Position numbers and translations under genes: made by a program. 64,000 nt of DNA, from assembly GCF_024609765.1 (NCBI RefSeq), contig NZ_JANFDG010000028.1, positions 1 to 64,000 of the forward strand, read 5' to 3'. Shown piece by piece: positions 24,422-49,611 of the stretch. The first letter of the stretch is position 1, and each line of letters opens with the position of its first letter. This DNA is from Shinella pollutisoli. Its GTDB lineage: Bacteria; Pseudomonadota; Alphaproteobacteria; Rhizobiales; Rhizobiaceae. The notes beneath the pieces are model-generated. The model was not told the DNA's origin, did no database searches, and saw nothing but the letters and a program-made list of their open reading frames with translations.

Positions 24422-26182
24422 ATGCTTCATACACAGAATTCAAAGGTCGACCCGATCACCCTTTCGGTCGTGCGCGGCATGCTCGAGACCACCCAGCGCG
24501 AGATGACGCTGGCGCTGGAGAAGACGGCGCGCTCGTCGGTCTTCAACCTGGCGCACGACTATTCGACGGCGCTCTTCAACGCGCGGCCGGAGATGATCCT
24601 GCAGGGCCAGGATATCCCGATCCATCTCGGCTCGCTCATTCCCGCCATGAAGGCGGTCGCCGGCTTCTTCGGCGACGACATCCACGAGGGCGACCTGATC
24701 CTCCACAACGACCCGGCCTTCGGCGGCAGCCATGCGATCGACACCTGCATGTACAAGCCGGTCTTCTACAAGGGCGAGCTCGTCTACTGGACGGTCTGCA
24801 AGGGTCACCTCACCGATATCGGCGGCCCGGTGCCGGCCGGCTACAACCCGAACGCCACGGAAATCTACGCCGAGTGCCTGCGCATCCCGCCGGTCAAGAT
24901 CTGGGACCGCGGCAAGCCGCGCCACGACGTCCTCAATATGATCCTCACCAACATGCGCGCGCGCCGCGACCAGGAGGGCGATTTCCGCGCCCTCATCGGC
25001 GCCTGCCAGGTCGGCGAGCGCAACCTGATCGCCATGCTCGACAAATACGGCAAGGCTGAGGTGGACGCCTGCGTCGACACGCTGCTCGACATGGCCGACA
25101 GGCACATGCGCGCGCTGATTTCCACCGTGCCCGACGGCACCTACGAGGGCGCTGCCATCCTGGAGGATGCCGGCCACGGCTTCGGCGATTTCGAGATCAG
25201 GGCGACGGTGACGATCACGGGCGACGCCTGCCATATCGCCATCGCCAGCCCGCCGCAGATCCCCTATTTCATCAATTCCTACGAGGGCAATTCCCATTCC
25301 GGCGTCTATCTCGGGCTGATGATGTTCGCGGCCCTGCCGCCGCCCTACAACGAAGGCCTCTATCGCTGCGTCAGCGTCGACTTCGGGCCGAAGGGCACGC
25401 TCTGCAACGCGCAGGAGCCGGCCCCGCATATGAACTGCACGACGACGCCGATGGAGACGCTGACGGACGCCGTGCGCCTCGCCTTCGAGAAGGCGATGCC
25501 CTCCAAGGTCTCCGCCTCCTGGGGCCACGCCAACGGGCTCAACATCGCCGGCCGCGATTCCCGCAACGGCGAGGAATTCGTGACCATGGTGCTCGCCACC
25601 ATCATCTCCGGCGGCGGGGCGACGCCGAAGCAGGACGGCTGGCATGCGGTCGGCCCGGAATGCTGCTTCGGGGCGCTCACCTCCGGCGACGTCGAATTGC
25701 TCGAATACTCCTACCCCATCGTCATCCACCGCTATTCGCTGATGACCGATTCCGGCGGGGCCGGAAAGTTCCGCGGCGGCTCGGGCACGGCCTGGGAGGT
25801 GGAGCCGCTCAACGGCGACATGCTGTGCATCGGCTTCGGCGAGGGCCGCCGCATCCCGGCGATGGGAGCCGCCGGCGCGACCTCGGCGATGGTCGACACC
25901 AAGGTCGGCCGCGTCGAGCTGCGCCGCGGCGGCAAGGTCGAGGTCGAGCGCAAGAACATCATCGAGACCATCCGGCCGGGCGAGACCATCACCAACCTCA
26001 ATCCCGGCGGCGGCGGCTACGGCAACCCGTTCGAGCGGCCGGTGGAGAAGGTCGTCTCGGACGTCAGGAACGGCCTCGTCTCGCTGGAAGGCGCCCGCCG
26101 CGACTACGGCGTCGTCATCGCCGACCCGGAGACGCTCGACGTCGACGCCGCCGCGACCGAACGGCTCAGAGCCACCGGCTAG
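24422..26182 (+). CDS. hyuB: Hydantoinase B / oxoprolinase family protein
   Basis: A 586-residue HyuB-type subunit. Family blocks are clear: FNLAHDYSTALFNARPEMIL, GDLILHNDPAFGGSHAIDT, GNSHSGVYLGLMMF, and the glycine-rich TDSGGAGKFRGGSGTAWEVE near the C terminus. With HyuA it forms an ATP-dependent ring-opening enzyme (N-methylhydantoinase, 5-oxoprolinase) or, in relatives, a carboxylase. A GTG at 24413 is an alternative start three codons earlier; neither has a strong ribosome site. It is the first gene of hyuB-hyuA-permease, divergent from the AraC regulator. Confidence 0.92.
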   Translation: MLHTQNSKVDPITLSVVRGMLETTQREMTLALEKTARSSVFNLAHDYSTALFNARPEMILQGQDIPIHLGSLIPAMKAVAGFFGDDIHEGDLILHNDPAFGGSHAIDTCMYKPVFYKGELVYWTVCKGHLTDIGGPVPAGYNPNATEIYAECLRIPPVKIWDRGKPRHDVLNMILTNMRARRDQEGDFRALIGACQVGERNLIAMLDKYGKAEVDACVDTLLDMADRHMRALISTVPDGTYEGAAILEDAGHGFGDFEIRATVTITGDACHIAIASPPQIPYFINSYEGNSHSGVYLGLMMFAALPPPYNEGLYRCVSVDFGPKGTLCNAQEPAPHMNCTTTPMETLTDAVRLAFEKAMPSKVSASWGHANGLNIAGRDSRNGEEFVTMVLATIISGGGATPKQDGWHAVGPECCFGALTSGDVELLEYSYPIVIHRYSLMTDSGGAGKFRGGSGTAWEVEPLNGDMLCIGFGEGRRIPAMGAAGATSAMVDTKVGRVELRRGGKVEVERKNIIETIRPGETITNLNPGGGGYGNPFERPVEKVVSDVRNGLVSLEGARRDYGVVIADPETLDVDAAATERLRATG

Positions 26183-26279
26183 AGCATTTTCGCTTTTCTT
26201 CGAATCGCGAAAACGCTCTATCCCTTTGTTTCTACACAATTCCGGACGCAAAACCGCTTCGCACTTTTGCTGGAATTGT
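26180..26279. repeat. Rhizobial intergenic palindromic element
   Basis: Two adjacent hairpins fill the gap between hyuB and hyuA: TAGAGCATTTTCGC (26180-26193) pairs with GCGAAAACGCTCTA (26207-26220) with one mismatch, and ACAATTCC (26236-26243) pairs with GGAATTGT (26272-26279). The sequence is AT-rich against its surroundings and matches the look of a dispersed repeat common in Rhizobiaceae. It could lower or stabilise expression of hyuA. Confidence 0.6.
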
Positions 26280-26296
26280 TCTGAGGATCACCTATC

Positions 26297-28378
26297 ATGA
26301 CCCAGAATTCCTACCGCCTCGGCATCGACGCCGGCGGCACCTTCACCGACTTCGTCATCGCCGACCGCGCGACCGGCGAGGTCAAGCTGTTCAAGGCGCT
26401 CTCCACGCCCTCCGACCCGACCAGGGCGATCGAGAACGGCCTCGGGCTGATCGCCGCCGATCTCGGCCGGCCGATCGGCGAGATCATCGCCAATTGCGAC
26501 CTCTGCATCAACGGTACCACGGTCGGCCTCAACGCCCTCATCACCCATCGCGGCGGACGCACGGGGCTGATCTGCACGGCCGGCCACGAGGATTCCATCG
26601 AGATCCGCAACGGCCACAAGGAGGACGGCTTCCGCTACGATCCCGAATATCCGGCGGCGACCATGCTCGTGCCGCGCTACCTGCGCCGCGGCGTGCGCGA
26701 GCGGGTGCTCTCGGACGGCTCCGTGCGCACGCCCTTGAACGAGGAGGACGTGCGCGAGGCCTGCCGGCTGTTCCTGAAAGAGGGGGTCGAGACGGTGGCC
26801 ATCTCCTTCGTCTGGTCGGTGCTCGACCCGTCGCATGAGCGGCGCGCGGCGGAGATCGTCCGCGAGACGATGCCCGGGGCGATCCTCACCGTCGGCAGCG
26901 AGCTCTACCCGCAGGTCCGCGAATACACGCGCACCTCGACGGCGGTGACGAACGCCTATCTGGCGCCGGTGATGCGCCGCTACATCGAGGCGGTCGACGC
27001 CTATTTCCGCTCGCTCGGCGCGCGCCAGCCGGTGCGCTACTTCCAGTCCAACGGCGGGCTTGCGGTCGGCCAGGTGATGACGGACCGCTCCGTCTACGCC
27101 ATCAATTCCGGCCCGGCCTCGGCCCCGCAGGCGGGCCTCTATGCCGGCGCGCCCTTCGGCCACGAGAACGTCATCACCGTCGACATGGGCGGCACCTCCT
27201 TCGACATCACGCTGACGCGCAACGGCCAGACCAACCTCAACAAGAACATCGACTTCCTGCGCTACCGCATCGGCGTGCCGATGATCCAGGTGGAGACGCT
27301 GGGGGCGGGCGGCGGCTCGATCGGCTGGGTCGACCCGCTCGGGCTCCTGCAGGTCGGCCCGCAATCGGCGGGCTCCGAGCCCGGCCCCGCCTGCTACGGC
27401 CGCGGCGGCGCGGAGCCGACCACCTCCGACGCCAACCTCGTGCTCGGCTATCTCAACCCCGAGGGCCTTCTCGGCGGCAAGCTGCCGCTCGACGTGGCGA
27501 AGGCCCGGGCGGCGATGGAGCGCGTCGCAAGACCCCTCGGCATCTCGGTCGAGCAGGCGGCCTACGGCATGTTCGCCATCGTCAACAACAACATGGTCAA
27601 CGGCATCCGCCGCGTCTCGGTCGAACGCGGCTACGACCCGCGCGACTTCGTCCTCGTCGGGGCGGGGGGCGCGACGGCGGCGCATATCACGGCGCTGGCG
27701 CGGGAGATGGGCATCGACACCATCATCCTGCCCAAGCTCGCCTCCGGCCTCTGCGCCTTCGGCCAGATCATATCCGACGTGAAGTACAACTACATGGCGC
27801 CCGCACCGGTACGGCTCGACAACGCGGCCGCCTACGAGCGCATCGACAGCCTCTTCAACGAGATCGAGGCGAAGGGCGTCGCGCATCTCGAAGCGGACGG
27901 CTTTCCGCCCGAGGCGATCGACATCCGGCGTTCGATCGACATGCGCTATGTCGGCCAGGTGCACGAATGCACCGTCGACATCGGCACCTTTCCGATTACC
28001 GAAACGACGATCGAAAAGGTCAAGGACGCCTTCCATGCCCGCCACGAGGAGCTCTACACCTATGCCGAGTGCCACAGCGCGGTCGAGGTGGTGAACCTCG
28101 AATCGACCATCTACGGCCGCATCGAGAAGGTGCGCCCGCCGAAGCTCGCCGAAGGCGGCGGCGCGGAGCAGGCGCTCAAGGGCCATCGCGACGCGATCTT
28201 CGACCAGTCCGGCAAGGCGACCGCCACGTCCGTCTACGACGGCGCGAAATTCGGCGCGGGCGCGCGCATCCACGGCCCGGCGATCATCGAGGAGGTGACG
28301 ACGACCATCGTCGTCGAGCCCGGCTGGACGAGCACACTGCACGAGAGCGGCAACTATCTGCTGACTCGGGAAAACTGA
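26297..28378 (+). CDS. hyuA: Hydantoinase A / oxoprolinase family protein
   Basis: A 693-residue HyuA-type subunit with the ASKHA-like ATP-binding fold. It opens YRLGIDAGGTFTDFVIADR (phosphate-1 loop), has VITVDMGGTSFDITL (phosphate-2) and GAGGATAAHITALAREM (adenosine motif). It should phosphorylate the ring amide or urea oxygen while HyuB completes hydrolysis. GAGGATCACCT precedes the ATG. Downstream comes an NCS1 permease, pointing to a heterocycle such as a hydantoin, or 5-oxoproline, as substrate. Confidence 0.93.
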   Translation: MTQNSYRLGIDAGGTFTDFVIADRATGEVKLFKALSTPSDPTRAIENGLGLIAADLGRPIGEIIANCDLCINGTTVGLNALITHRGGRTGLICTAGHEDSIEIRNGHKEDGFRYDPEYPAATMLVPRYLRRGVRERVLSDGSVRTPLNEEDVREACRLFLKEGVETVAISFVWSVLDPSHERRAAEIVRETMPGAILTVGSELYPQVREYTRTSTAVTNAYLAPVMRRYIEAVDAYFRSLGARQPVRYFQSNGGLAVGQVMTDRSVYAINSGPASAPQAGLYAGAPFGHENVITVDMGGTSFDITLTRNGQTNLNKNIDFLRYRIGVPMIQVETLGAGGGSIGWVDPLGLLQVGPQSAGSEPGPACYGRGGAEPTTSDANLVLGYLNPEGLLGGKLPLDVAKARAAMERVARPLGISVEQAAYGMFAIVNNNMVNGIRRVSVERGYDPRDFVLVGAGGATAAHITALAREMGIDTIILPKLASGLCAFGQIISDVKYNYMAPAPVRLDNAAAYERIDSLFNEIEAKGVAHLEADGFPPEAIDIRRSIDMRYVGQVHECTVDIGTFPITETTIEKVKDAFHARHEELYTYAECHSAVEVVNLESTIYGRIEKVRPPKLAEGGGAEQALKGHRDAIFDQSGKATATSVYDGAKFGAGARIHGPAIIEEVTTTIVVEPGWTSTLHESGNYLLTREN

Positions 28379-28384
28379 CGGCGC

Positions 28385-28404: not shown

Positions 28405-28429
28405 CATTTGCAACAGGGAGGAGAAAGCC

Positions 28430-29785
28430 ATGGCAGGCAGCCTGTCGGACACCGAAGCCGAAAGTTCGGACTATTCAAACGTGGCGGTTCCGCCGCAGGC
28501 GCGCATGCCGAAGGGCGCGCTCACCATGGCCTGGTGGGCGGTGTGCAGCGCCGTCTTCTACATCGTCGTCGGCGCGGCGATGGCGCTCAACTTCGGCACG
28601 TGGAATGCCATCGTCGGCATGGTGCTGTCGATCGTCGTCTACGGCGCCATCAATGCGGTGCTGAGCCGCTTCGCCATCCGCACCGGACTGTCCGTCGCGC
28701 TGTTCTCGCGCGTCCTGTTCGGCAATGTCGGGGCGGGGCTCGCCACGCTCATCTTCTGCGCCACCGCGATCTACTACGCCGTCTTCGAAGGCTCGGTGAT
28801 CGCGGTCGGCATCAACACGATCCTGCCGTCGATCTCCTATCCGGTCGCGGCACTGATCGTGGTGCTCTACTCCGTCCCGCTGATCTTCGGCAGCATCCAG
28901 ACCTGGCTCGACAAGTTCAACGGCGTGCTGCTGCCCTTCTATATTCTCGGCCTCGTCGTCGCCGTCGTGCTCGCCATCGGCGAATACGGCTACAGCGACA
29001 AGTGGCTGAACCTCGGCCCGGAGACGGGCGCGCCGGCCGGCGGCTGGTGGTCCTGCTTCGTCTACTACATGGGCGTCTGGGTGCTGATGATGTTCACCTT
29101 CGACTATGCCCGCTTCGGCCGGCAGGAGGATGCCGGCTATCACGCCTGGTTCAACTTCGGCATGCCCTTCTATGCCATGGCCTTCCTGGTGAGCGGCCTG
29201 TTCGGCATGTTCATGATCGGCACGGTGCCGGATCTCGGCGCGCTCTCGGAAGTCAGCGTGCTGCTCGCGCTCCTCAAGCTGATGGGCATCTGGGGCCTGC
29301 TCTTCGTCTGGGTGACCCAGACGCGCATCAACACGGCGAACTACTATCTTGCCGCCGTCAACATGGAGGCCCTCGTCCAGCTCTTCGGCCGGCTGCCCTT
29401 CGGGCGCATCGGCTGGGCGATCGCGGTCGGTGCCGTCGTCTACGTGCTGATGCTCGCCGACGTCTTCGCCTACCTGCTCTCGGCGCTCGCCTATCAGGGC
29501 ATCTTCGTCGTCGCCTGGGTGGCCGTCGCCATGGCGCATATCCTCATCGACCGCTACAGCGCGCTCGTCGGCAGCACGATCGAGTATCGCTCCAGCCATG
29601 TGCCGGCCTTCAATCCGCTCGGCATCAGCGCGTGGTTCGTCGCGGCGGCGGCTGGCATCTGGCTGCATGTCTGGGGCGGCGCCTATGCGGAGCTTTCGGC
29701 GCCGGCGACCGCGGTCGTCGCCTTCGCGATCTACGCGGCAGGACTCACCCAGGCGCGCCGCTCCTGGTTCCTGGCGGCCGGCTGA
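28430..29785 (+). CDS. NCS1 family nucleobase/hydantoin permease (CodB-like)
   Basis: A 451-residue membrane protein with about 12 helices and the NCS1 pattern: the soluble N terminus, then PKGALTMAWWAVCSAVFYIVV, and mid-protein LFSRVLFGNVGAGLATLIF. NCS1 proteins import cytosine, allantoin, uracil or hydantoins with sodium or protons. CAGGGAGGAGAAAG precedes the ATG. Position after hyuBA makes it the likely importer of the hydantoinase substrate. Its stop abuts the convergent LysR gene with no gap. Confidence 0.9.
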   Translation: MAGSLSDTEAESSDYSNVAVPPQARMPKGALTMAWWAVCSAVFYIVVGAAMALNFGTWNAIVGMVLSIVVYGAINAVLSRFAIRTGLSVALFSRVLFGNVGAGLATLIFCATAIYYAVFEGSVIAVGINTILPSISYPVAALIVVLYSVPLIFGSIQTWLDKFNGVLLPFYILGLVVAVVLAIGEYGYSDKWLNLGPETGAPAGGWWSCFVYYMGVWVLMMFTFDYARFGRQEDAGYHAWFNFGMPFYAMAFLVSGLFGMFMIGTVPDLGALSEVSVLLALLKLMGIWGLLFVWVTQTRINTANYYLAAVNMEALVQLFGRLPFGRIGWAIAVGAVVYVLMLADVFAYLLSALAYQGIFVVAWVAVAMAHILIDRYSALVGSTIEYRSSHVPAFNPLGISAWFVAAAAGIWLHVWGGAYAELSAPATAVVAFAIYAAGLTQARRSWFLAAG

Positions 29786-30688
29786 TCAGCGCTCCGGCAG
29801 GTGGAAGGCCTGCTGGAAATAGGAGCGAAAGGCGAGCATCGGCGGCGTGAGCTCCATGTTGCGCCGCCAGGCGAGACCGACGTCCATGGCGGGCACCGGA
29901 TCGCTGACGGTGACCGTCTCGATGCGCCGGCCCTCCAGCGACCAGGGCCGGTGCACCATGTCGGAGAGGATCGCCACGCCCTGGCCGTTGGCGACCAGCG
30001 AGCGCACGGCCTCCACCGAGGACGTGCGCAGGATGACCCTCGGCTGATAGGGCGTGGCGCTCCAGTATTTCAGCGCCGAATGTGCGGCCTCGTCCACTGT
30101 CAGCATGATGTAGGGCTCCTCGGCGATCTCTTTCAGGCCCACCGTCTCGGCCTGCAGCAGCGGATGCTGCGCCGGCAGCCAGAGCCGGCGCGTCGAGCTC
30201 AGCACCTTCTCCGTCACGAGCGCCGGGTTGAGGATGTTGGAGGTGAGCAGCACCGACATGTCGTAGCGGTTGCTGAGCAGCCCTTCCTCGATGGATTCGC
30301 GGTTGAGCTCGAAGAGCTGGATCTCCAGCCTGGGAAAGAGCCGGCGCAGGCGCTCGATGTGCAGCGGCAGGAAATAGCCGATCACCGTATAGGTGGCGGC
30401 GATGGTCAGCGTGCCCTCGATCTCGCTGCTGACGACGTTGAGATGGGTCGCCTCGTCGACCTTCTTGAGGATCTCGTAGGCGTGGGAGAGGAACTGCCGG
30501 CCGGCGGGCGTCAGGTCCATGCCGTGCGGCGTGCGCAGGAAGAGACCGACGCCGACCGTGCGCTCCAGCTCCTTGATCGCCGTCGTCACCGCCGACTGCG
30601 AGATCGAGAGGTCGATGGCCGCCTGCGAGATCTGGCCGAGCTCGGCCGTCGCGACAAAGTAGCGGATCTGTCTGAGGCTGATCGTCAA
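29786..30688 (-). CDS. LysR-family transcriptional regulator
   Basis: A 300-residue LysR regulator. The helix-turn-helix covers about residues 3-60 (LRQIRYFVATAELGQISQAA; QSAVTTAIKELERTVGVGLF), followed by a periplasmic-binding-like effector domain. It is divergent from pxpA across 255 bp that hold a 10-bp inverted repeat, which suggests it controls the pxpA-accBC-pxpBC operon, with the effector being a pathway intermediate. Confidence 0.9.
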   Translation of the reverse strand: MTISLRQIRYFVATAELGQISQAAIDLSISQSAVTTAIKELERTVGVGLFLRTPHGMDLTPAGRQFLSHAYEILKKVDEATHLNVVSSEIEGTLTIAATYTVIGYFLPLHIERLRRLFPRLEIQLFELNRESIEEGLLSNRYDMSVLLTSNILNPALVTEKVLSSTRRLWLPAQHPLLQAETVGLKEIAEEPYIMLTVDEAAHSALKYWSATPYQPRVILRTSSVEAVRSLVANGQGVAILSDMVHRPWSLEGRRIETVTVSDPVPAMDVGLAWRRNMELTPPMLAFRSYFQQAFHLPER

Positions 30689-30943: not shown

Positions 30944-31720
30944 GTGCGCGAGGCGGTCGACATCAATTGCGACATGGGCGAGGCCTTCGGCCGCTGGCGC
31001 GTCGGCGACACGGACGACGCATCGCTGATGCCGCTGATCAGCTCGGCCAATATCGCGGCCGGCTTCCATGCCGGCGATCCGAACCTGATGGACGAGACCG
31101 TGCGGCTCGCCGCCGAGCACGGCGTCGGCATCGGCGCCCATCCCGGCTACAACGACCTGCAGGGCTTCGGCCGCCGCAAGATCGCCGGCACCGCCCGCGA
31201 GCTCGTCAACGACGTCGTCTACCAGGTCGGCGCCATCCGCGAATTCGCCCATCGCCACGGCATGCGCCTGCAGCACGTCAAGCCGCACGGCGCGCTCTAC
31301 ATGGAGATGGCCGTCAATCCGGAGCTGTCGCAGATCTTCGTGCAATACATGCGCACCGTCGAGCCGAACGCCTATATCTTCTGCATGGGCGGCTCGGCGA
31401 CCTGGCGCGCGGCGACCGAGGCGGGCCAGCCGGTCGTGCGCGAGTTCTACGCCGACCGCGACTATGACGACGGCGGCTCGATCGTCTTCACCCGCGATGC
31501 CGGCCGCCCCGATCCGGCGGCGATCGCCCGCAAGGTGCTGCGCGCCTGCAAGGAGGGCAAGGTCCGCACCGTGCAGGGCAACGACATCGCCATAGACTTC
31601 GAATCCATCTGCTTCCATTCCGACACGCTCGGCGCCTTGGACATCGTGCGCCGGATGCGCGAGACGCTCGTCGCCGCGGGCATCCGCATCGCGCCGGTCT
31701 CGGACGTGGCGCGGCGCTGA
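30944..31720 (+). CDS. pxpA: 5-oxoprolinase subunit A (LamB/YcsF family)
   Basis: A 258-residue LamB/YcsF protein. Diagnostic blocks: [67 protein letters not shown]. PxpA works with PxpB and PxpC to open the 5-oxoproline (pyroglutamate) lactam with ATP. The GTG at 30944 is chosen since GAGGGA is 7 nt upstream and the family N terminus begins there; the longer frame from 30815 is AT-rich non-coding sequence. It leads a tight operon pxpA-biotin carrier-biotin carboxylase-pxpB-pxpC. Confidence 0.93.
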
Positions 31721-31739
31721 CATTCACGTGGAGAGAGAC

Positions 31740-31982
31740 ATGAGCAAGATCGAGATCAGATCGCCCCTGCCGGGCACCTTCTACCGGGCGTCCGCGCCGG
31801 ACGTCCCGCCGTTCAAGGCCGACGGCGACAGCGTGGCGAGCGGCGACGCGATCGGCCTCATCGAGGTGATGAAGACCTTCCAGGAGGTGCCGGCCGGCGT
31901 CGACGGCAAGAATATCACCTTCCTCGTCGACAACGAGGAGCCGGTCATGGCCGGCCAGGTCATCGCCGAGGTGGAGGCATGA
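31740..31982 (+). CDS. Biotin carboxyl carrier domain protein
   Basis: An 80-residue stand-alone biotinyl-lipoyl domain. The biotinylation site is EVMKTF with Lys45 (the usual form is AMKM). It lacks the proline/alanine-rich N-terminal half of housekeeping AccB, which is about 150 residues, so it is a dedicated carrier. The ATG at 31740 follows GGAGAGAGAC, and the end overlaps the biotin carboxylase start by 4 nt. It should shuttle a carboxyl group between the carboxylase and a PxpB/PxpC-type transferase. Confidence 0.88.
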   Translation: MSKIEIRSPLPGTFYRASAPDVPPFKADGDSVASGDAIGLIEVMKTFQEVPAGVDGKNITFLVDNEEPVMAGQVIAEVEA

Positions 31983-33364
31983 CCATCCGCTCGATCCTCG
32001 TTGCCAACCGCGGCGAGATCGCGGTGCGCATCATCCGGGCGGCGAAGGCGCTCGGCATCCGCACGGTGCAGGTCCACAGCGCGGCGGACGCCGACATGCT
32101 GGCCGTCCGCCTCGCCGACGCGGCCGTCGACATCGGCTCGCCGGCGCCGAGGAAATCCTATCTCAACATCGAGGCGGTGGTGAACGCCGCCAAGGCGGCC
32201 GGCGTCGACGCCGTCCATCCGGGCTACGGCTTCCTGTCGGAGAACGCCGATTTCGCCGATGCCATCGAGGCGGCGGGCATGGTCTTCATCGGCCCGAAGG
32301 GCGAGGCGATCCGCCTGCTCGGCGACAAGGTCGCCGCCCGCGCCGTGGCCGAGAAGGCCGGCGTCCCGACCGTTCCCGGCAGCGACGGCCGCCTCGCCAC
32401 CATCGAAGAGGCGCGCGCCGTCGCGGAGAGAACGGGCTTTCCGATCATGATCAAGGCGGCGGCAGGCGGCGGCGGGCGCGGTATCCGCGTCGCCGCCGAC
32501 CTCGCCGACCTCGAACGCCATTTCCCGCAGGCCTCGGCGGAAGCGCTCGCCGCCTTCGGCGACGGCGGCCTCTACCTGGAGAAGGTCATCACCAGGGCCC
32601 GCCATGTCGAGGTGCAGATCCTCGGCGACGGCGAGAACGTCGTCCATTGCTTCGAGCGCGAATGCTCGCTGCAGCGCCGGCGTCAGAAGGTCTGGGAGGA
32701 GGCGCCCTCCTTCCTGCTGCCGGCCGAGGTGCGCGCACGGCTTTGCGAGAGTGCGGTGGCGCTCGCCCGCGCGGTCGGCTATCGCGGCGCCGGCACGGTC
32801 GAATATCTCTATGACGAGACGACGCGGGAATTCTACTTCATCGAGGTCAACACCCGCATCCAGGTCGAGCATCCCGTCACCGAGATGGTGACCGGCATCG
32901 ACCTCGTCGCCGAGATGATCCGCATTGCCGGCGGCGCGCCGCTGTCGGTTCGCCAGGAGGACATCCGGCTCGACGGCCATGCCATCGAGTGCCGCATCAA
33001 CGCGGAGGACCCCGAGCGCGGCTTCATGCCCGCACCCGGCACCGTCTCCGGGCTTACCGTGCCGGAGGGCGAGGGCATCCGCTTCGACACCATGCTCTAC
33101 GAGGGCTACACGATCCCGCCCTTCTACGATTCGCTCATCGGCAAGCTGATCGTCCACGGCGAGACGCGCGCGACCTGCCTCGAACGGCTGAAGGAAGCGC
33201 TCCAGGGGCTGGCGATCGAGGGCGTCGCCACGACCGTGCCGCTGCACCTGGCACTCGCCGGGGACGGCAACGTCGCGCGCGGCGCCTTCGACACCCGTTT
33301 CCTCGAGCAATGGCTCGAAACCGAATTCGCCGGGAAGGCCGGCCCGACCGCGGAGGTTGCCTGA
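31979..33364 (+). CDS. Biotin carboxylase (AccC-like)
   Basis: A 461-residue ATP-grasp biotin carboxylase: N-terminal SILVANRGEIAVRIIRAAKA, the glycine loop IKAAAGGGGRGIRVA, the active region IEVNTRIQVEHPVTEMVTGI, and EDPERGFMPAPG in the C-terminal domain. It carboxylates the carrier encoded just upstream. Start and stop overlap both neighbours by a few bases. The protein is a paralogue of the fatty-acid AccC, in a lactamase-type operon, so its carboxyl acceptor is probably the heterocycle and not acetyl-CoA. Confidence 0.93.
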   Translation: MTIRSILVANRGEIAVRIIRAAKALGIRTVQVHSAADADMLAVRLADAAVDIGSPAPRKSYLNIEAVVNAAKAAGVDAVHPGYGFLSENADFADAIEAAGMVFIGPKGEAIRLLGDKVAARAVAEKAGVPTVPGSDGRLATIEEARAVAERTGFPIMIKAAAGGGGRGIRVAADLADLERHFPQASAEALAAFGDGGLYLEKVITRARHVEVQILGDGENVVHCFERECSLQRRRQKVWEEAPSFLLPAEVRARLCESAVALARAVGYRGAGTVEYLYDETTREFYFIEVNTRIQVEHPVTEMVTGIDLVAEMIRIAGGAPLSVRQEDIRLDGHAIECRINAEDPERGFMPAPGTVSGLTVPEGEGIRFDTMLYEGYTIPPFYDSLIGKLIVHGETRATCLERLKEALQGLAIEGVATTVPLHLALAGDGNVARGAFDTRFLEQWLETEFAGKAGPTAEVA

Positions 33365-41261: not shown

Positions 41262-42029
41262 ATGACCGCACAGACACACCGTATCGTCATCGTCACCGGC
41301 GCCGGCATCGGCATCGGTCAGGCGACGGCAAAGGCCTTCGGGGCGCTCAGCGACCACGTCGTCGTCACAGACATCCTGGAGAAGGAGGGCCGCGAGACGG
41401 CCGAGGCCATCAATGCTGCCGGCGGCTCGGCCGAGTTCCGCTTCTACGACGTGCGCTCCACCGAGGCGGCCGACCGGCTCGTCGCCGATGTCGAGGCGCG
41501 CCACGGCAGGATCGACGTGATCGTCGCCAATGCCGGCATCGCCCACCGCACGCCGCTTGCCGAGCTCACCGACGAGAAGTGGGACCTCACCTTCGACATC
41601 GACCTCAAGGGCATCTTCCGCCTCGTGCGGGCGGCGGCACCGGGCATGCGCGCCCGCGGCTCGGGCGCCATAGTCGCGCTCTCCTCGATCATGGGCGTCG
41701 CCTACGGCTGGGACGAGCACGTGCACTATTCCGCCGCCAAGTCCGGCGTCGTCGGCCTCGTGCGGGGGCTGGCGGTCGAGATGGCGCGCGACGGCGTGCG
41801 GGTGAACGGCATCGCGCCCGGCTACATCCGCACCGCCCAGCTCCTCTCCGAGGAGAACTCGCTCGGGCCCGCGGGCGCGGAGAAGGCGGCGGAGTTCATT
41901 CCGATGGGGCGGCTCGGGACGCCGGAGGACATCGCCGATGTCGCCGCGTTCCTCGCCTCCGACAGCGCGAGATACATGACCGGCCAGGTGCTGGTCGTGG
42001 ATGGCGGCCTGCTCGTGGGCCGGTACTGA
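41262..42029 (+). CDS. SDR family oxidoreductase
   Basis: A 255-residue short-chain dehydrogenase with TGAGIGIGQATAKAF, VANAGIAHRTP, the catalytic Ser in ALSSIMG, YSAAKSG and a C-terminal GQVLVVDGGL. The Asp in VVTDILEKEG suggests NAD use. It differs clearly from the SDR at 40298 and may catalyse a second oxidation. The ATG at 41262 is preferred to 41244 because GGAGACATCC is right before it. Next comes the binding protein gene. Confidence 0.9.
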   Translation: MTAQTHRIVIVTGAGIGIGQATAKAFGALSDHVVVTDILEKEGRETAEAINAAGGSAEFRFYDVRSTEAADRLVADVEARHGRIDVIVANAGIAHRTPLAELTDEKWDLTFDIDLKGIFRLVRAAAPGMRARGSGAIVALSSIMGVAYGWDEHVHYSAAKSGVVGLVRGLAVEMARDGVRVNGIAPGYIRTAQLLSEENSLGPAGAEKAAEFIPMGRLGTPEDIADVAAFLASDSARYMTGQVLVVDGGLLVGRY

Positions 42030-42127: not shown

Positions 42128-43360
42128 ATGTTGAAGTCGCAAATCAATCGCCGCTCGCTGCTGAAGCGCTCGGCCGGCATGATGGCACTCGCCATGGGCG
42201 GCGGCACGCCCTTCCTGTCCTCGCGCGCGGCCTATGCTCAAGGTGCAGACCTCGCCGGCCAGCAGCTTCGCACCATCGGCCTGTCGGTGACGGTGCAGGA
42301 ACGCATCCTGGAGGAGTTCAAGAAGCTCTCCGGCGTCGGCTCCACCTCCGGCACGGCCGCGACCTTTCCGGACGCGCAGACCAAGATCCTCTCGGGCTCG
42401 AAGGACTACGACTGCTGGGAGATCATCGCCGAGCGCCTGCCCGCCATCGTCATGACCGACAATGTCGAGCCGATCCCGGCGGCCTCGCTCAAGAACTGGG
42501 CGAACATCCGCGACACCTTTACGACGCCCGACGCGAAGTGGGACCGCGCCGCGCAGATCGTCGGCCAGATCTGGGCGGACGAGGCCCAGTCCGTGCTGAA
42601 CATGGTGCCGGCCGTCTACAACTACGACTCGATCGGCTACAACCCGGATGTGCTCTCCGAGGAGGAGGCCAACACCTGGACGTCGATCTTCGATCCGAAG
42701 TGGAAGGGCAAGTCCGGCCTCAACACCGACCCGCTGATCGCCTTCGGCCAGGCCATCATGGCGATGAACACGCTGGGCCTCTCCGACGTCAAGAATCCCG
42801 GCAACCCCACCGCCGCCGAGATTGACGAGGCTGCCGCCTTCCTCGTCTCGAAGAAGAAGGAAGGCCAGTTCCGCGCGCTCTGGGGCGATTTCGGCGAGCT
42901 GGTCAACCTCATGGCCTCGGGCGAGATGGTCGTCAGCGACGCCTGGCAGCCCGCCGTCATGGCCGTCAAGGCGCAGGGCAAGCCCTGCAAGTACGCCGTG
43001 CCGAAGGAAGGCTATCGCGGCTGGGCGATCGGCCCGTCGATGATCGCCGGCACGACCAACCGCGAGGCCGTCATCGCCTATGCCGACTACTGGCTGTCGG
43101 GCGAGCCGGGCATCACCGTCTCCGAGCAGGGCTACTACTCGCCGTCGACCAATATCAAGGACGTCATGGCGCCGGAGAAATACGCCTTCTGGTACGAGGG
43201 CAAGCCCTGGGTCGGTGCCGAGGAGCGCGGCATCAAGGAGGGGGACCTCCGCGACGGCGGCTCGCTGGAGGAGCGCTCCAAGAACGTCGCCTACTGGCAC
43301 CAGTGGCCGGACGAATACGACCACCTGATCCAGAAGTGGGACGAGTTCCTCAACGCATGA
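42128..43360 (+). CDS. ABC transporter substrate-binding protein, Tat-exported
   Basis: A 410-residue extracellular solute-binding protein of the PotD-like type. The N terminus INRRSLLKRSAGMMALAMGG followed by SSRAAYAQ is a twin-arginine signal with an Ala-x-Ala-like cut site. In the mature part AIGPSMIAGTTNREAVIAYA and WYEGKPWVG match polyamine-type binders. AACTGGAGAAGAGAAC precedes the ATG. A paralogue without signal lies at 46997. A strong hairpin follows the gene. Confidence 0.9.
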   Translation: MLKSQINRRSLLKRSAGMMALAMGGGTPFLSSRAAYAQGADLAGQQLRTIGLSVTVQERILEEFKKLSGVGSTSGTAATFPDAQTKILSGSKDYDCWEIIAERLPAIVMTDNVEPIPAASLKNWANIRDTFTTPDAKWDRAAQIVGQIWADEAQSVLNMVPAVYNYDSIGYNPDVLSEEEANTWTSIFDPKWKGKSGLNTDPLIAFGQAIMAMNTLGLSDVKNPGNPTAAEIDEAAAFLVSKKKEGQFRALWGDFGELVNLMASGEMVVSDAWQPAVMAVKAQGKPCKYAVPKEGYRGWAIGPSMIAGTTNREAVIAYADYWLSGEPGITVSEQGYYSPSTNIKDVMAPEKYAFWYEGKPWVGAEERGIKEGDLRDGGSLEERSKNVAYWHQWPDEYDHLIQKWDEFLNA

Positions 43361-43424: not shown

Positions 43425-44519
<1,095 letters not shown>

Positions 44520-44559: not shown

Positions 44560-45441
44560 ATGGCGAAGGAAATTTTTTGCAGTTTCGGCATCGACGTCGA
44601 TGCCGTGGCCGGATGGCTCGGCTCCTATGGCGGCGAGGATTCGCCGGACGACATCTCGCGCGGCCTCTTCGCCGGCGAGGTCGGCAGCCCGCGGCTCCTG
44701 AAGCTCTTCGAGCGCTTCGGCATCAAGACGACCTGGTTCATCCCCGGCCACTCGATCGAGACCTTCCCCGACGAGATGCAGGCGGTGGCGGACGCCGGCC
44801 ACGAGATCGGCATCCACGGCTACAGCCACGAGAACCCGATCGCCATGACCCGCGAGCAGGAGACGGAGGTGCTCGACAAGTGCATCGAGCTCGTCACCAA
44901 GCTCTCCGGCAAGCGGCCGACCGGCTATGTCGCGCCCTGGTGGGAATTCTCCAACGTCACCAACGAGCTGCTGCTGGAACGCGGCATCAAGTACGACCAC
45001 TCGCTGATGCACAAGGACTTCACGCCCTATTACGTGCGCGTCGGCGACAGCTGGACGAAGATCGACTATTCCAAGAAGCCGGCCGACTGGATGGTCCCGC
45101 TCAAGCGCGGCCACGAGACCGACCTCATCGAGATCCCGGCCTCCTGGTATCTCGACGACCTGCCGCCGATGATGTTCATCAAGAAGTCGCCGAACAGCCA
45201 CGGCTTCGTCAATCCGCACGACATCGAAGAGATGTGGCGCGACCAGTTCGACTGGGTCTATCGCGAGATGGACTATGCGGTCTTCCCGATCACCATCCAT
45301 CCGGACGTGGCCGGCCGGCCGCAGGTGTTGATGATGCTGGAGCGCCTCTATGCGCACATGATCAAGCATCCGGGCGTGAAGTTCGTGACGATGAACGAGA
45401 TCGCCGACGACTTCGCCAGGCGCTTCCCGCGGAAGAAATGA
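44560..45441 (+). CDS. Polysaccharide deacetylase-fold hydrolase, imidase-like
   Basis: A 293-residue NodB-homology metal hydrolase. Metal site candidates are Asp12/Asp14 in GIDVDAVAG and His86/His90 in HGYSHENP. There is no signal peptide, so it is cytoplasmic and not a cell-wall enzyme. From memory, the cyclic imide hydrolase (imidase) of Pseudomonas putida YZ-26 has the same length and fold; together with lactam and amide hydrolase genes around it this makes cyclic-imide ring opening the best guess. An allantoinase of the PuuE type is the main alternative. AAAGGAGAG precedes the ATG. Confidence 0.75.
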
Positions 45442-45595: not shown

Positions 45596-45928
45596 ATGTG
45601 TTCGCTTTGCGGCGTGCTCGGTGGAAACGAGCACTGGACGGATGCCGCCGCGCGGCCCGGCGTCTTCACGCGCAATGTCGAGCGAATCGACCGGCGGCGC
45701 GAGCGTGCGCGGCGGGTGGCCGCGGCCAACCGTGTGCTGGCCGCCTTCGGCATGAGCCTTTCCGACTGGCAGGGCTCGTCCTTCGTGCTCGCCACACGCA
45801 CCGGCAAGAGCGAGATCGTCGAGGATCTCGGCCATCTCTGGCCGGCGGCCGAGCGGCTGTCGGGCCGCGCCTGCGATCCGCTCGATCCAGACCTCATCCG
45901 CCGCATGGAGGAGGACGGGCATGGCTGA
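45596..45928 (+). CDS. Small conserved-looking CxxC protein
   Basis: A 110-residue soluble protein I do not recognise. It begins MCSLCGVLGG, a CxxC pair right at the N terminus that could bind zinc or iron, followed by an arginine-rich helix (NVERIDRRRERARRVAAANR) and FGMSLSDWQGSSFVLATRTG. A strong AAAGGAGG precedes the ATG, and its last 8 nt overlap the COG0523 GTPase gene, so a shared role in metal handling is plausible. No signal peptide or membrane segment is seen. Confidence 0.75.
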   Translation: MCSLCGVLGGNEHWTDAAARPGVFTRNVERIDRRRERARRVAAANRVLAAFGMSLSDWQGSSFVLATRTGKSEIVEDLGHLWPAAERLSGRACDPLDPDLIRRMEEDGHG

Positions 45929-46997
45929 CGCGCCCGTCTTCACCCCCGTCCACCTGCTGACCGGCTTCCTCGGCTCGGGCAAGACGACGCTCCTGAAGCG
46001 GCTGCTCGCCGACCCCGCGCTCGCCGACACGGCCGTGCTGATCAACGAGTTCGGCGAGGTCGGCCTCGACCATCACCTGGTCGAGCGGATCGACGAGACG
46101 ATGGTGCTTTTGCAGTCCGGCTGCGTCTGCTGCACCGTGCGCGGCGAGCTCGCCGATGCGCTGCGCGATCTCCATTCCAGGCGCGAACGCGGCCTCGTGC
46201 CGCCCTTCACGCGCGTGGTGATCGAGAGCACCGGGCTCGCCGACCCGTTCCCGGTCCTGTCGACGCTGAAGTCAGATCCGGTGCTGCGCCATCATTTCCG
46301 CGCCGGCAGCGTGGTGACGACCGTCGACGCCGTCAACGGACTCGCCCAGCTCGATACCTATGTCGAATCGAACCGCCAGGCGGCGATCGCCGACCGGATC
46401 GTCCTCACCAAGGCGGATCTCGCCGCCGACGGCGCCGTGCCGGCCGCCCTCATGGCAAGGCTGGCGCAGATCAATCCCGACGCCGTCCGCCATGTCGCGA
46501 CCGCCGACGGCCCCGCTGCCGAGACCCTGCTCGGCGATACGGAGGCGCATCGCGCGGGCAAGCTGCAATCGGCAAGCGGCTTCTATTGCGACGCGCCCGC
46601 CACGCTGCTTGCGGCGGACGGCACGGCGCACCGCTCGGCCATCTCCTCCTTCGTCGTCGCCGTCGACGGGCCGGTCGACTGGACCGGCTTCGGCGTCTGG
46701 CTCACCATGCTGCTCAACCGCCACGGCGAGCGGGTGCTGCGGGTGAAGGGCATCCTCGACATCGCCGGCGAGGAGCGCCCGGTCGCCATCCACGGCGTGC
46801 AGCACCTCGTCCATCCGCCGGTGCATCTTGCCGCCTGGCCGCCGGAGGGGCGCGGCTCGCGCATCGTCTTTATTGTTGACGGTCTCGACGCGAACCTGTT
46901 GAAACGGTCTTTTGACGCCTTCGCGCGTGCCGGGAAAACGCGCGAGGGCGCACAGCCGGAGGCAGCGGCGCAGGTTCGCAACGTCCAGAGTTCCTGA
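45921..46997 (+). CDS. COG0523 (CobW/G3E) GTPase, putative metallochaperone
   Basis: A 358-residue G3E GTPase. Walker A GFLGSGKT at residues 15-22, the metal motif GCVCC with Cys68, Cys70 and Cys71, a TKADL guanine-type motif and a C-terminal CobW domain. COG0523 proteins deliver or insert zinc, cobalt or iron into client enzymes. No cobalamin or nitrile hydratase gene is near; the imidase-like metal hydrolase, two genes upstream, is the obvious client. It overlaps the small CxxC gene by 8 nt and the next gene by 1 nt (TGATG). Confidence 0.9.
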   Translation: MADAPVFTPVHLLTGFLGSGKTTLLKRLLADPALADTAVLINEFGEVGLDHHLVERIDETMVLLQSGCVCCTVRGELADALRDLHSRRERGLVPPFTRVVIESTGLADPFPVLSTLKSDPVLRHHFRAGSVVTTVDAVNGLAQLDTYVESNRQAAIADRIVLTKADLAADGAVPAALMARLAQINPDAVRHVATADGPAAETLLGDTEAHRAGKLQSASGFYCDAPATLLAADGTAHRSAISSFVVAVDGPVDWTGFGVWLTMLLNRHGERVLRVKGILDIAGEERPVAIHGVQHLVHPPVHLAAWPPEGRGSRIVFIVDGLDANLLKRSFDAFARAGKTREGAQPEAAAQVRNVQSS

Positions 46998-48229
46998 TGA
47001 ACAAGCATTCCCCGAAACCGGCAACCGCAGCACCGGCCGTCCACACGGCGGGCCGGCCGAAGCTGCGCGTGCTCGGCACCGCGATCTCGCTGCTGGAGGA
47101 GCTGCGCGTGAAGGCCGAGGCCGATCTCGGCATCGAGGTCAGCTTCGACAACAACGATTTCATCGTCACCCAGCACAAGGCCGCGCAGGAGCCGGACAGC
47201 TACGACATCTACGACCAGTGCTTCCACAATCTCGACATCGTCTGGTACTGGCGGGCGATCCAGCCGATCGAGATCTCCCGCATCGCGCTGTGGGACGAGA
47301 TCAACGACCTGACGAAAACCGGGCAGATCGGCCCGAGCGCCCGCATGGGGCAGGGCGACGTGCCGGCCCGCAAGCTCTACGTCCAGCCGTCTTTCGCGCT
47401 CGGCGACACGCCGACCGGGCGCATCTCGATGCTGCCGACGACGCACAATTTCGACAGCTTCGCCTACCGGCGCGACGTGGTCGACGACCTGCAGCCGATG
47501 ACGAGCTGGGCGGCCTTGCTGGACGAGCGCTGGAGCGGCCGGGCGGCGCTCGTCGACGAGCCGGCGATCGGCATCTTCGACGCCGCGCTCGCCGCGCAGG
47601 CGGCCGGCCTCATGAGCTTCGGCAATGTCGGCAACATGACCGTCGCCGAGATCGACCAGTTGATGGATATCCTGGAGGCCAGGCGCAAGGCGGGCTTCTT
47701 CCGCTCCTTCTGGCGCACCGCGGAGGACGCCGCCCGCCTGATGATAGACGGCGAGACCGATATCCAGAGCATGTGGTCGACCGGCATCGGCATCCTCAAC
47801 AGCCAGGGCTTTCCCGTCGAGCAGGCCGCGCCGGCGGAGGGCTATCGCGCTTGGCACGGGGGCCTCTGCCTGTCGCGCCGCCTCGGCGGGCGCATGCTCG
47901 ACGTCGCCTACGAGTATCTCAACTGGTGGATCTCCGGCTGGCCGGGGGCGGTCGTCGCCCGGCAGGGTTACTACATCTCCACCCCGGAGCGCTCGCGCCG
48001 CTACATGAGCGCGGCCGAATGGGACTACTGGTACGAGGGCCTGCCCGCGCGCGAGGACCTGCCCGGCCCCGACGGGACGGTCCGCGTCAAGCGCGGCGCG
48101 GTGCGCAGCGGCGGCTCCTACTGGCAGCGCGCCAACGGCATCGCCGTGTGGAACACGACCATGGATGAACACAACTATCTTGTCCGCCGCTGGATGCAGC
48201 TCGTCGGACGCGCAGAGAAGGATATTTGA
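46997..48229 (+). CDS. Substrate-binding-protein paralogue without signal peptide
   Basis: A 410-residue protein with the polyamine-type binding fold (PTTHNFDSFAYRRDVVDDLQ; TDIQSMWSTGIGILNSQGFP; WYEGLPAREDL). Its C-terminal region aligns by eye with the binding protein at 42128 (WWISGWPGAVVARQGYY against YWLSGEPGITVSEQGYY). The N terminus MNKHSPKPATAAPAVHTAGR lacks any hydrophobic or twin-arginine signal, so it should stay in the cytoplasm, where it may act as a ligand sensor or carrier. It overlaps the GTPase stop and is followed 2 bp later by the amidase. Confidence 0.85.
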   Translation: MNKHSPKPATAAPAVHTAGRPKLRVLGTAISLLEELRVKAEADLGIEVSFDNNDFIVTQHKAAQEPDSYDIYDQCFHNLDIVWYWRAIQPIEISRIALWDEINDLTKTGQIGPSARMGQGDVPARKLYVQPSFALGDTPTGRISMLPTTHNFDSFAYRRDVVDDLQPMTSWAALLDERWSGRAALVDEPAIGIFDAALAAQAAGLMSFGNVGNMTVAEIDQLMDILEARRKAGFFRSFWRTAEDAARLMIDGETDIQSMWSTGIGILNSQGFPVEQAAPAEGYRAWHGGLCLSRRLGGRMLDVAYEYLNWWISGWPGAVVARQGYYISTPERSRRYMSAAEWDYWYEGLPAREDLPGPDGTVRVKRGAVRSGGSYWQRANGIAVWNTTMDEHNYLVRRWMQLVGRAEKDI

Positions 48230-48231
48230 CG

Positions 48232-49611
48232 ATGCCGACGCCGCGCTCGGTCGCCCAGCTTTCCGTGCTCCTGCAATCGGGGGCGCTCGACCCCGTCGTG
48301 CTCGCCGAGGAGACCCTTGATGCCATCGAGGCGCACCCGGACGCGGCGATCTTCACCTGCCTTACGAAGGAACGCGCGAAGAGGGAGGCCGAGGCCGCCC
48401 GCCGCCGCCTGCGCGAGGGCCGGTCGCTCGGCGCGCTCGACGGCGTGCCGATCGCCTGGAAGGACCTGTTCGACATCGAGGGCCTGCCCACAACCGCCGG
48501 CTCGCGGGTGCTCCGGGGCGCCGAGCCCGCCGGCAGGGACGCGGCCGTGGTGCGCGCGCTGGCGGGCGCGGGCATGGTCAGCGTCGGGCGGGTCAACATG
48601 AGCGAGTTCGCCTTCTCCGGCCTCGGCATCAATCCGCATTACGGCACGCCGCGCAACCCCGCCTCGCCCGACGGCGAGCATCGCCTTCCGGGCGGCTCCT
48701 CCTCGGGCTCGGGCGTCGCCGTGGCGGCCGGCCTCGTGCCCGTCTCGATCGGCACGGATACGGGCGGCTCTGTGCGCATCCCCGCCGCCTTCAACGGCAT
48801 CGTCGGCTACAAGGCCTCGCGCGGCCGCTATCCGATGGAGGGCGTGTTTCCGCTTGCAAGGAGCCTCGATTCGCTCGGGCCGCTCTGCCGCACCGTCAAG
48901 GACGCCGTCCTCGTCGACGCGGCCATGCGCGGCCTGCCGGCGGCGGAGGCCCTGCCGCGCCCCGCCCCGGCCGATCTTTCCCTCGTCATTCCCGAAACCG
49001 TCTTCTTCGACGGAGCCGAGCCGGAGGTCGTGGCGGCCTTCGAAACGGCCGTCGAGCGGCTGGCGAGGGCAGGGGCGCGCATCCGCCGGCAGGCTTTCCC
49101 GGAATTCTCCGCGATCTTCGAGCTGATGGCGAAACACGGTGCGCTCGTCACCGCCGAGGCCTTCGTCCTGCACCGCGAACGCATCCAGGGGCCGGCGGCG
49201 GCCGAGATGGATTCCCGCGTGGTCAAGCGGACGCTGCTCGGCGAGAAGATCACGCTTGCCGACTATCTGGAGACGCTCGCCGCGCGCGAGCGGCTGACGG
49301 CCGCCTTCGAGGCGCGGCTCGGGCCGGACAGCCTGCTGATCGCCCCGACGCTGCCGCATGTCGCTCCGGCGCTCCAGCCGCTGCTCGACGACGAGGAGCT
49401 GTTCTTCCAGGCGAACGCGAAGACGCTGCGCAATACCCTCGTCGGCAACTTCCTCGACTGGTGCGGCGTGTCGCTACCCTGCGGGACCGGCGCGGGCGCA
49501 ATGCCTGTCGGGCTCCTCATCTCGGCGCCGAGGAACGCCGACGACCGCCTTCTCGCCGCCGCGGCGGCGATGGAGAGCCCGCTCGGCGACCTGTCCCGTT
49601 CCGCCGAATAG
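48232..49611 (+). CDS. Amidase signature family hydrolase
   Basis: A 459-residue amidase. The triad is visible: Lys in VPIAWKDLFD, the serines in LPGGSSSGSGVAVAA and GTDTGGSVRIPA. It is cytoplasmic. It differs from the amidase at 9824 in length and sequence. A TTG at 48226 is an alternative start, but the ATG at 48232 is favoured. As the last gene of the cluster it would hydrolyse the half-amide left after imide or lactam ring opening. Confidence 0.92.
   Translation: MPTPRSVAQLSVLLQSGALDPVVLAEETLDAIEAHPDAAIFTCLTKERAKREAEAARRRLREGRSLGALDGVPIAWKDLFDIEGLPTTAGSRVLRGAEPAGRDAAVVRALAGAGMVSVGRVNMSEFAFSGLGINPHYGTPRNPASPDGEHRLPGGSSSGSGVAVAAGLVPVSIGTDTGGSVRIPAAFNGIVGYKASRGRYPMEGVFPLARSLDSLGPLCRTVKDAVLVDAAMRGLPAAEALPRPAPADLSLVIPETVFFDGAEPEVVAAFETAVERLARAGARIRRQAFPEFSAIFELMAKHGALVTAEAFVLHRERIQGPAAAEMDSRVVKRTLLGEKITLADYLETLAARERLTAAFEARLGPDSLLIAPTLPHVAPALQPLLDDEELFFQANAKTLRNTLVGNFLDWCGVSLPCGTGAGAMPVGLLISAPRNADDRLLAAAAAMESPLGDLSRSAE

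Follow-up and report, generated by a model that had tools for sequence, protein, structure and literature searches.

The described systems closest to the locus reported here include a bacterial hydrolase of disputed substrate and a fungal pathway for nicotinate. According to the accessible portions of its structure paper, Helicobacter pylori HP0310 has defined Zn ligands (D14, H86 and H90) and catalytic residues, is inactive on the deacetylase substrates tested and on allantoin, lacks an open polysaccharide groove and has homologues that adjoin polyamine-type importers (PMC3084791). A separate study, in its accessible part, reports acetylesterase and chitin activity for the same protein (PMC3688963). 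In Aspergillus nidulans, HxnW is reported to oxidise 5,6-dihydroxypiperidine-2-one to 3-hydroxypiperidine-2,6-dione, after which HxnM opens the ring and the amidase HxnN acts next; an identity of 64% is given there between HxnM and a cyclic imide hydrolase of Pseudomonas putida (PMC9304392). Here we analysed a 25-kb stretch (24422..49611) of a 64,000-nucleotide window from Shinella pollutisoli (contig NZ_JANFDG010000028.1), the window being the whole piece of DNA examined, in which a relative of HP0310 and HxnM lies among genes for other predicted ring-opening enzymes.

A preliminary description of this stretch had listed HyuAB, PxpABC with biotin parts, an imidase, an importer, short-chain dehydrogenases/reductases (SDRs) and an amidase. 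Open frames and family matches confirmed all of these genes, and the proposed theme of cyclic amide or imide catabolism is supported. From gene content we read the locus as a cyclic-amide/imide island with a putative shared importer. Our preferred explanation, to which we assign a probability of about 0.6, is a composite of three cyclic-amide cassettes that were recruited together and partly integrated, with an imidase route, metallation of the imidase by a small protein (H124) and a CobW-type GTPase, and a common importer. The parts belong to known families; what is new is the set of cassettes with importer exchange, the near-obligate pairing of H124 with the imidase, with an occasional second hydrolase partner, and a solute-binding protein without a leader (SBP2). 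No prior description of the importer exchange, the H124-imidase pairing or the leaderless SBP2 was found in the open-access literature.

Three cassettes and their linkage

Gene models were derived from codon-usage scoring combined with family scans (Pfam, NCBIfam), and all named genes in the stretch are open frames with the expected codon usage and family matches. They fall into three separable cassettes lying side by side: I (imidase), II (PxpABC-like) and III (CapBA). The source genome, a 5.2-Mb draft, contains three PxpC-type and five HyuA-type genes in total. We searched 81 genomes (the source genome and members of its genus, family and order) with five protein queries, using E-value limits set for each query, and read gene order from stretches fetched around the matches. 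The imidase was found in 19 genomes, 17 at ≥65% identity (close imidases) and two at 39-43%, with matches to CapA in 13, PxpC in 24, the solute-binding protein in 16 and the amidase in 19. A set of named loci comprised the best 80 of 566 confirmed imidase relatives from an imidase-alignment scan of named genomes. Imidases in these loci are 80-97% identical, so that close kin are over-represented, and some loci repeat the 81-genome set (for example L079 = G007, L080 = G010 and L107 = G043).

All three cassettes are contiguous in five genomes (G000, G001, G002, G009 and G012) and likewise across contig ends in G019. They are adjacent in another order in G030, where CapAB is only 31-36% identical. 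CapAB lies elsewhere in the genome in G004, G010 and G018, and PxpABC elsewhere in G007 and G017; G011 has CapAB and the amidase together, PxpABC on a separate contig and no imidase. Among the 17 genomes with a close imidase, PxpC is linked to it in 12, found elsewhere in four and missing from one, and CapA lies near cassette I in 9 of the 13 CapA genomes, including G019 (split over contigs) and G058. Counting out to about 9.5 kb from the imidase, 32 of the 80 named loci contain PxpB or PxpC and 13 contain CapA or CapB; the density of these genes in the source genome predicts one or two such loci in 80 by chance, a figure uncorrected for kinship among the 80. The pairing also takes varied forms. 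Four Ensifer loci (L067, L072-L074) carry a 35% identical CapAB behind the amidase. Two metagenome-assembled genomes outside Rhizobiaceae join all three kinds of gene: L099 (Rhodospirillales) in the order SDR1, SDR2, amidase, imidase, H124, CobW, CapB, CapA, PxpA, biotin carboxylase, PxpB, PxpC, and L121 (Kiloniellaceae) with imidase, Pxp and Cap genes in yet another order.

Cassette II has the same order in the 81-genome set as it has here: a LysR regulator (29786..30688, minus strand; family match and gene order), then, on the plus strand like every gene below unless stated, a PxpA-like protein of the LamB/YcsF family (30944..31720), a biotin carrier with an EVMKT biotinylation-type motif (31728..31982), a biotin carboxylase (31979..33364) and the PxpB-like (33364..34236) and PxpC-like (34226..35197) carboxyltransferase halves. 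The homologues and biotin genes are thus present as first described, but both halves score below the 5-oxoprolinase cut-offs (PxpB, 71.2 of 145.55 bits for TIGR00370; PxpC, 226.2 of 500 for NF045499, with TIGR00724 exceeded). PxpB scores higher against urea carboxylase (TIGR02712, 111.8 bits) than against the 5-oxoprolinase PxpB model, and PxpA exceeds two subfamily models (NF003814, 294.4 of 226; NF003816, 225.6 of 213), with three equivalog models below cut-off. Given the low PxpB and PxpC scores and the biotin carrier and carboxylase in the operon, we rejected a plain 5-oxoprolinase and read cassette II as a putative biotin-type lactam opener akin to both 5-oxoprolinase and urea carboxylase.

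Stand-alone PxpABC in the genus has same-strand downstream genes for a PF13407 binding protein, an ATPase and a permease. Across the 24 PxpC loci, a contiguous same-strand ATP-binding cassette (ABC) set adjoins 11 of 12 non-fused loci and none of the 12 fused to cassette I (Fisher p 1e-5; our Fisher values ignore relatedness). These sets are Rbs-type in seven loci (G007, G011, G017, G039, G045, G061 and G065) and Liv-type in four (G031, G034, G037 and G048). G019 was counted as fused across contig ends and the importer status of G000 was read from the window; an ABC ATPase in G043 (3.7 kb past the PxpC start, opposite strand) and one upstream of LysR in G018 were not scored as adjacent importers. 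Within the genus, the Rbs-type binding protein is present in all three non-fused genomes (G007, G011 and G017) and in none of eight fused ones (G000, G001, G002, G004, G009, G010, G012 and G018); G019, taken apart, has relatives of only 56% and 39% identity on another contig. The absence of its own importer suggests that cassette II, where fused, probably uses the importer of cassette I, which would imply related substrates. Judged by gene order, the association of the blocks is greater than chance, because the pairing recurs in varied arrangements and because the PxpABC importer is absent beside the imidase cassette.

PxpABC sets away from the imidase cassette have other neighbours. A xanthine-dehydrogenase-family molybdenum hydroxylase adjoins four of them (L016, L048, L051 and L052; 66-89% identity to the L051 large subunit), and a 63% piece of this enzyme lies at the edge of L100, a locus with both PxpABC and imidase. 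L051 also carries a class III aminotransferase, and its type of gene content suggests a path from heterocycle to lactam, amino acid and semialdehyde.

Cassette III consists of an AraC regulator, CapB, CapA and often an NCS1-like permease in the 81-genome set. Here, capB (24413..26182; PF02538) encodes a caprolactamase beta-type HyuB with 1102.9 bits against NF050157, and capA (26297..28378) an alpha-type HyuA with 1235.5 bits against NF050156 and a match to PDB 6yra at E 6.5e-253. Both subunits exceed the NCBIfam caprolactamase CapBA equivalog cut-offs (1000 each), and the pair originally given as HyuA/HyuB therefore scores as a predicted caprolactamase-type CapBA. The gene described as an NCS1 permease (28430..29785) is there and occurs in 8 of the 81 genomes, but it is NCS1-like only, with no match in the Pfam scan and 29 bits against the TIGR00800 cut-off of 353. 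Two of three regulators credited to the stretch, LysR and GntR, lie inside it; the third, the AraC/FeaR-type gene beside capBA (23226..24179, minus strand), lies just upstream of its start at 24422.

The imidase and its companion proteins

The imidase of cassette I (44560..45441) is a 293-residue protein of the polysaccharide-deacetylase family without a leader peptide, which we assign to the HpPgdA/HxnM family. It is 73.7% identical to HP0310 (PDB 3qbu chain), and in the alignment it keeps the Zn ligands D14, H86 and H90, the catalytic D12 and H247, and also W127 and W128. A test for PuuE allantoinase gave 80.9 bits against the TIGR03212 cut-off of 424.6. On six plasmid records (Rhodococcus, Skermanella, Haladaptatus, Rubrobacter, Bradyrhizobium and Rhizobium ACO-34A) an asparaginase adjoins the imidase in the place of the amidase, which fits a half-amide as its product. 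We also observed two operons, without H124 or CobW, in which a 'urea carboxylase-associated' gene and an amidase accompany a polysaccharide-deacetylase-family gene distantly related to the imidase (Leisingera, L157:16426-18876) or a 61% identical imidase (Variovorax, L152:8282-11210).

Three genes between imidase and amidase, for H124, the CobW-type GTPase and SBP2, had been overlooked. H124 (45596..45928), an open frame between the imidase and CobW genes, owes its working name to an earlier, longer frame reading and encodes a 110-residue CxxC protein of no known family. Its sequence had no match in Pfam, NCBIfam or the PDB, and a predicted model of modest quality gave no convincing fold match. 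In the N-terminal CxxCG motif C5 is invariant, and C2 and H13 are present in ≥90% of 53 sequences. The following gene (45921..46997) encodes a CobW/COG0523 GTPase (PF02492, PF07683) with both hallmarks of COG0523, the P-loop GFLGSGKTT and a GCxCC metal motif, here GCVCC.

H124 occurs in 17 of the 81 genomes, exactly those with a close imidase (17/17 versus 0/64); the distant imidases of G006 and G063 are without it. The same was seen in a second sample of 398 Pseudomonadota genomes searched for imidase and H124, where the ten genomes with H124 are exactly those with an imidase match of E 1e-165 or better (10/10 versus 0/388) and three distant imidases (E 1e-51 to 1e-58) lack it. Among the named loci, 78 of 80 have H124 and 77 have CobW. 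The trio of imidase, H124 and CobW stands alone in 18 of the 80, with no SBP2, permease, strong amidase or SDR1 match in the available sequence, which contig ends cut short in L085, L093, L101, L111, L115, L116 and L128. In a collection of plasmid records, 60 carry H124 and 72 carry an imidase of ≥60% identity. An imidase of ≥66% accompanies H124 on 58 of the 60: 54 of these records also appear in the list of 60 imidase records, and on four further ones (Mesorhizobium, Rubrobacter, Bradyrhizobium and Skermanella) the imidase near H124 is 66-74% identical. H124 thus accompanies the close imidase exactly in two genome samples and is near-obligate, while universality elsewhere was not borne out.

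In known maturation systems, G3E GTPases work in pairs with a second protein, HypB with HypA and UreG with UreE. We propose, from sequence and gene order, that H124 and CobW may similarly supply the metal of the hydrolase. A broader version of this proposal is tentative, and we rate it somewhat short of even odds: H124 would found a metal-delivery family, forming with its own COG0523 GTPase a portable, HypA/HypB-like pair that serves ring-opening metallohydrolases with two unrelated folds, that of NodB in the imidase and that of an amidohydrolase-superfamily enzyme on two Paraburkholderia plasmids, and SBP2 would be a cytosolic imide handler or sensor.

SBP2 (46997..48229) is a solute-binding-protein paralogue, by family match, with no signal peptide. 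Comparison by eye of the two sequences shows it to be paralogous to the leader-bearing binding protein of cassette I and to start almost at the first strand of the fold. None of the 48 readable sequences among 49 SBP2 orthologues (≥49% identity) has a hydrophobic leader in a Kyte-Doolittle window test, and 36 of 38 orthologues of the leader-bearing protein have a twin-arginine-like motif. SBP2 is retained where a major facilitator superfamily (MFS) transporter stands in for the ABC importer, so it is not simply the binding protein of that importer. For a solute-binding protein to be leaderless, and to be kept in operons whether or not they include an ABC importer, is unusual, and we propose that SBP2 could act as a cytosolic ligand handler or sensor.

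The remaining genes of cassette I, assigned by family match, begin with a GntR regulator of 336 residues (35675..36685, minus strand) that has two GntR winged-helix-turn-helix stretches and an FCD domain; the double winged helix is also present in all three orthologues tested (Klebsiella, Paraburkholderia and R. johnstonii). There follow a Pot-like ABC ATPase (37229..38302), two ABC permeases (38545..39450 and, in a longer frame reading, 39453..40298), SDR1 (40295..41035), SDR2 (41262..42029), the solute-binding protein with its twin-arginine-type leader (42128..43360) and a second ABC ATPase (43425..44519), then imidase, H124, CobW, SBP2 and mostly the amidase. The latter, a proposed half-amidase (48232..49611; PRK06102), scores 706.6 bits against NF004766 (cut-off 559). 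Other genera and families (G023, G043, G058 and G061) share this order, apart from the amidase. The amidase lies beside the imidase in G030 and G061, near PxpA in G058 and beside the NCS1 gene in G011, and was not found near cassette I in G043. A frequent form in Pseudomonas, Burkholderia-type bacteria and Enterobacterales runs amidase, imidase, transporter, SDR2, SDR1, H124, CobW, SBP2. Its transporter is of the MFS type, as judged from annotation or Pfam for Klebsiella, Pantoea and Paraburkholderia and from inspection by eye for the Pseudomonas cluster. The Pantoea version is without an adjacent amidase, and Halomonas L133 has a different order. One MFS-type cassette (L148) lies on a plasmid of clinical Klebsiella pneumoniae, with insertion sequences adjoining.

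Proposed route and alternative explanations

These data allow us to suggest a mechanism. The importer of cassette I would bring in the substrate, CapBA of cassette III would open lactams with ATP and cassette II would open a lactam by its biotin-dependent enzyme. In cassette I, an SDR would convert a hydroxylactam to the cyclic imide, the Zn-dependent imidase would open this to a half-amide, and the amidase would release the dicarboxylate and ammonia, with H124 and the CobW-type GTPase loading or maintaining the metal of the imidase. Where joined to cassette I, cassette II has no importer of its own and would use that of its neighbour. Import, SDR, imidase and amidase had already been put forward as consecutive steps, and this is supported, the same SDR-imidase-amidase order being given for the fungal nicotinate pathway in the accessible part of that report (PMC9304392).

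Several observations weigh against such a composite, the first group concerning integration. Each cassette has a separate regulator. Cassette III retains its own permease in this stretch, and loss of the NCS1-like gene beside cassette I is a tendency that does not reach significance (4/4 versus 3/8, p 0.08; 3/9 with G058). The non-fused PxpABC of G058 has no adjacent importer, and the importer contrast is weakened because a close imidase, and with it any possibility of fusion, is missing from eight of the 12 non-fused genomes; it is present in G007, G017, G058 and G061. In addition, the 'close imidase' class (≥65% identity; E 1e-165 or better) was drawn after the hits had been seen. A rival account holds that the cassettes are three independent nitrogen-scavenging pathways for unrelated substrates, piled up on one replicon with no importer or intermediate in common. 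Besides the separate regulators, this account is favoured by the occurrence of each cassette alone, by further amide genes in the window (hydantoinase, second amidase, nitrilase family) and by the location of close relatives of the locus on megaplasmids. In the laboratory strain Rhizobium johnstonii 3841, cassettes I and II lie on pRL12 (RL_RS33710-33615). We consider the account unlikely, although worth serious attention, since the pairing recurs with varying gene order and with CapAB pairs that fall into plainly distinct identity classes, and since the cassette II importer is missing from every fused locus. The preliminary description had suggested comparative genomics as a check, with separate blocks counting against a joint role: the blocks do occur separately as well, but are recurrently joined beyond chance.

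The second group concerns the helper proteins. Of the named loci, L111 and L116 end at contig ends, and L109 seems genuinely to be without both H124 and CobW, in about 2.6 kb of visible downstream sequence. Of the 72 plasmid records whose imidase is ≥60% identical, only 58 gave an H124 match in a single-sequence tblastn search, and a profile added three among those looked at (Klebsiella, Pantoea At-9b and Haematobacter). Neither gene is in the visible flanks of imidases from Rouxiella (75%), Rhodococcus (73%), Variovorax (61%) and two haloarchaea or of a second imidase copy in Rhizobium ACO-34A (82.5%). According to the accessible text, HP0310 carried a metal ion when isolated from E. coli (PMC3084791); the helpers are therefore no universal requirement. 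Finally, two Paraburkholderia plasmids (L177 and L178) carry the H124-CobW pair with no imidase within 7 kb. H124 and CobW may accordingly serve another client, or a zinc-sparing response tied to the operon by chance, and the clients of COG0523 proteins are indeed reported, in the accessible part of a survey, to be diverse and mostly unknown (PMC2770081). We regard this as rather improbable given the exact co-occurrence in two genome samples and the 18 loci that contain the trio but none of the other cassette genes searched for. Moreover, where the imidase is not near, the neighbour again appears to be a hydrolase of cyclic amides: the Paraburkholderia pair lies with a GntR gene, an MFS transporter and an amidohydrolase-superfamily enzyme, kin to allantoinase, dihydroorotase and hydantoinase and below all their cut-offs. 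By family this would be a metal-dependent cyclic-amide hydrolase of a different fold from the imidase, in keeping with a role of the pair in metal delivery and at odds with the imidase as its only client. The pair adjoins a Tn3-family transposase and an integrase on these plasmids.

A single linear pathway for one compound, with CapAB, PxpABC, imidase and amidase as successive steps, as the preliminary description implied, agrees with the single block in the five contiguous genomes and, by inference over contig ends, in G019. We find it very improbable, because each block has its own regulator and is found apart from the others in relatives: with cassette I kept, G023, G043, G061, G007, G017, G004, G010 and G018 either lack cassette II or III or have it at another place. 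Two ATP-dependent lactam openers in series would also seem redundant. CapAB, PxpABC and the imidase are better read as parallel ring-openers. Barely credible is the remaining alternative, that the 'imidase' deacetylates peptidoglycan or another polysaccharide, as the name of its H. pylori homologue says, which has in its favour the Pfam match (Polysacc_deac_1), the identity to HP0310 and the activities reported in PMC3688963, but which we rejected given the missing leader, the operon with import, SDR and amidase genes, the inactivity on the deacetylase substrates tested and the lack of an open polysaccharide groove described for HP0310 in the available text of PMC3084791, and the opening of 3-hydroxyglutarimide reported for HxnM in that of PMC9304392.

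If the composite reading is true, it would provide a genetic home for bacterial use of cyclic imides and lactams in rhizobia and other soil bacteria and a function for the unnamed H124 family. It would also assign a client to one CobW subgroup, most COG0523 clients not being obvious according to the accessible survey text (PMC2770081), and would support an imidase-type reading of PgdA, the 'peptidoglycan deacetylase' of H. pylori over whose substrate there is disagreement.

Surrounding genes and comparison with known systems

Further amide-related genes lie on either side of the stretch. At 5559-12469 of the window is a second amide-use set with a histidinol-dehydrogenase-family gene, ABC importer genes (by eye), an amidase (9824-11302) and a PotF/PotD-like binding protein. 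By eye only, 13154-21201 holds an arginine deiminase-like set (arcD, arcA, arcB and arcC), with genes for a universal stress protein and a cation ATPase behind it. A further N-heterocycle set at 54545-62566 comprises a carbon-nitrogen hydrolase family gene, a Liv-type binding protein, a D-hydantoinase/dihydropyrimidinase above its cut-offs (60324-61781) and a weakly matching Asp/Glu-racemase-like gene (61832-62566).

Compared with the PxpABC 5-oxoprolinase, cassette II likewise has PxpA, PxpB and PxpC homologues in a single operon, but adds its own biotin carrier and biotin carboxylase and has a PxpB nearer to urea carboxylase. The H124-CobW pair resembles the G3E maturation pairs in that a metal-binding GTPase has a small Cys/His protein next to it and the two are linked to a metallohydrolase, whereas H124 has no detected sequence or fold relation to partners of the HypA/UreE type. 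Cassette III corresponds to Pseudomonas jessenii CapAB (PMC8453981, accessible part; PDB 6yra), both subunits scoring above the equivalog cut-offs; it differs in the NCS1-like permease and AraC regulator that accompany the pair and in having no transaminase among the scanned genes adjoining CapBA. With HP0310/HpPgdA the imidase shares its high identity, the Zn site and the polyamine-type importer neighbours of homologues, although the accessible text on that protein names it a deacetylase and mentions no CobW or H124 link (PMC3084791). The A. nidulans hxnW-hxnM-hxnN genes encode the same three enzyme types as cassette I, with imidases of one family. The available portions of the hxn report mention no CobW, H124, solute-binding protein or ABC importer, and the scanned genes of the 25-kb stretch include no equivalent of the hydroxylases and oxygenases that it places before the imide (PMC9304392).

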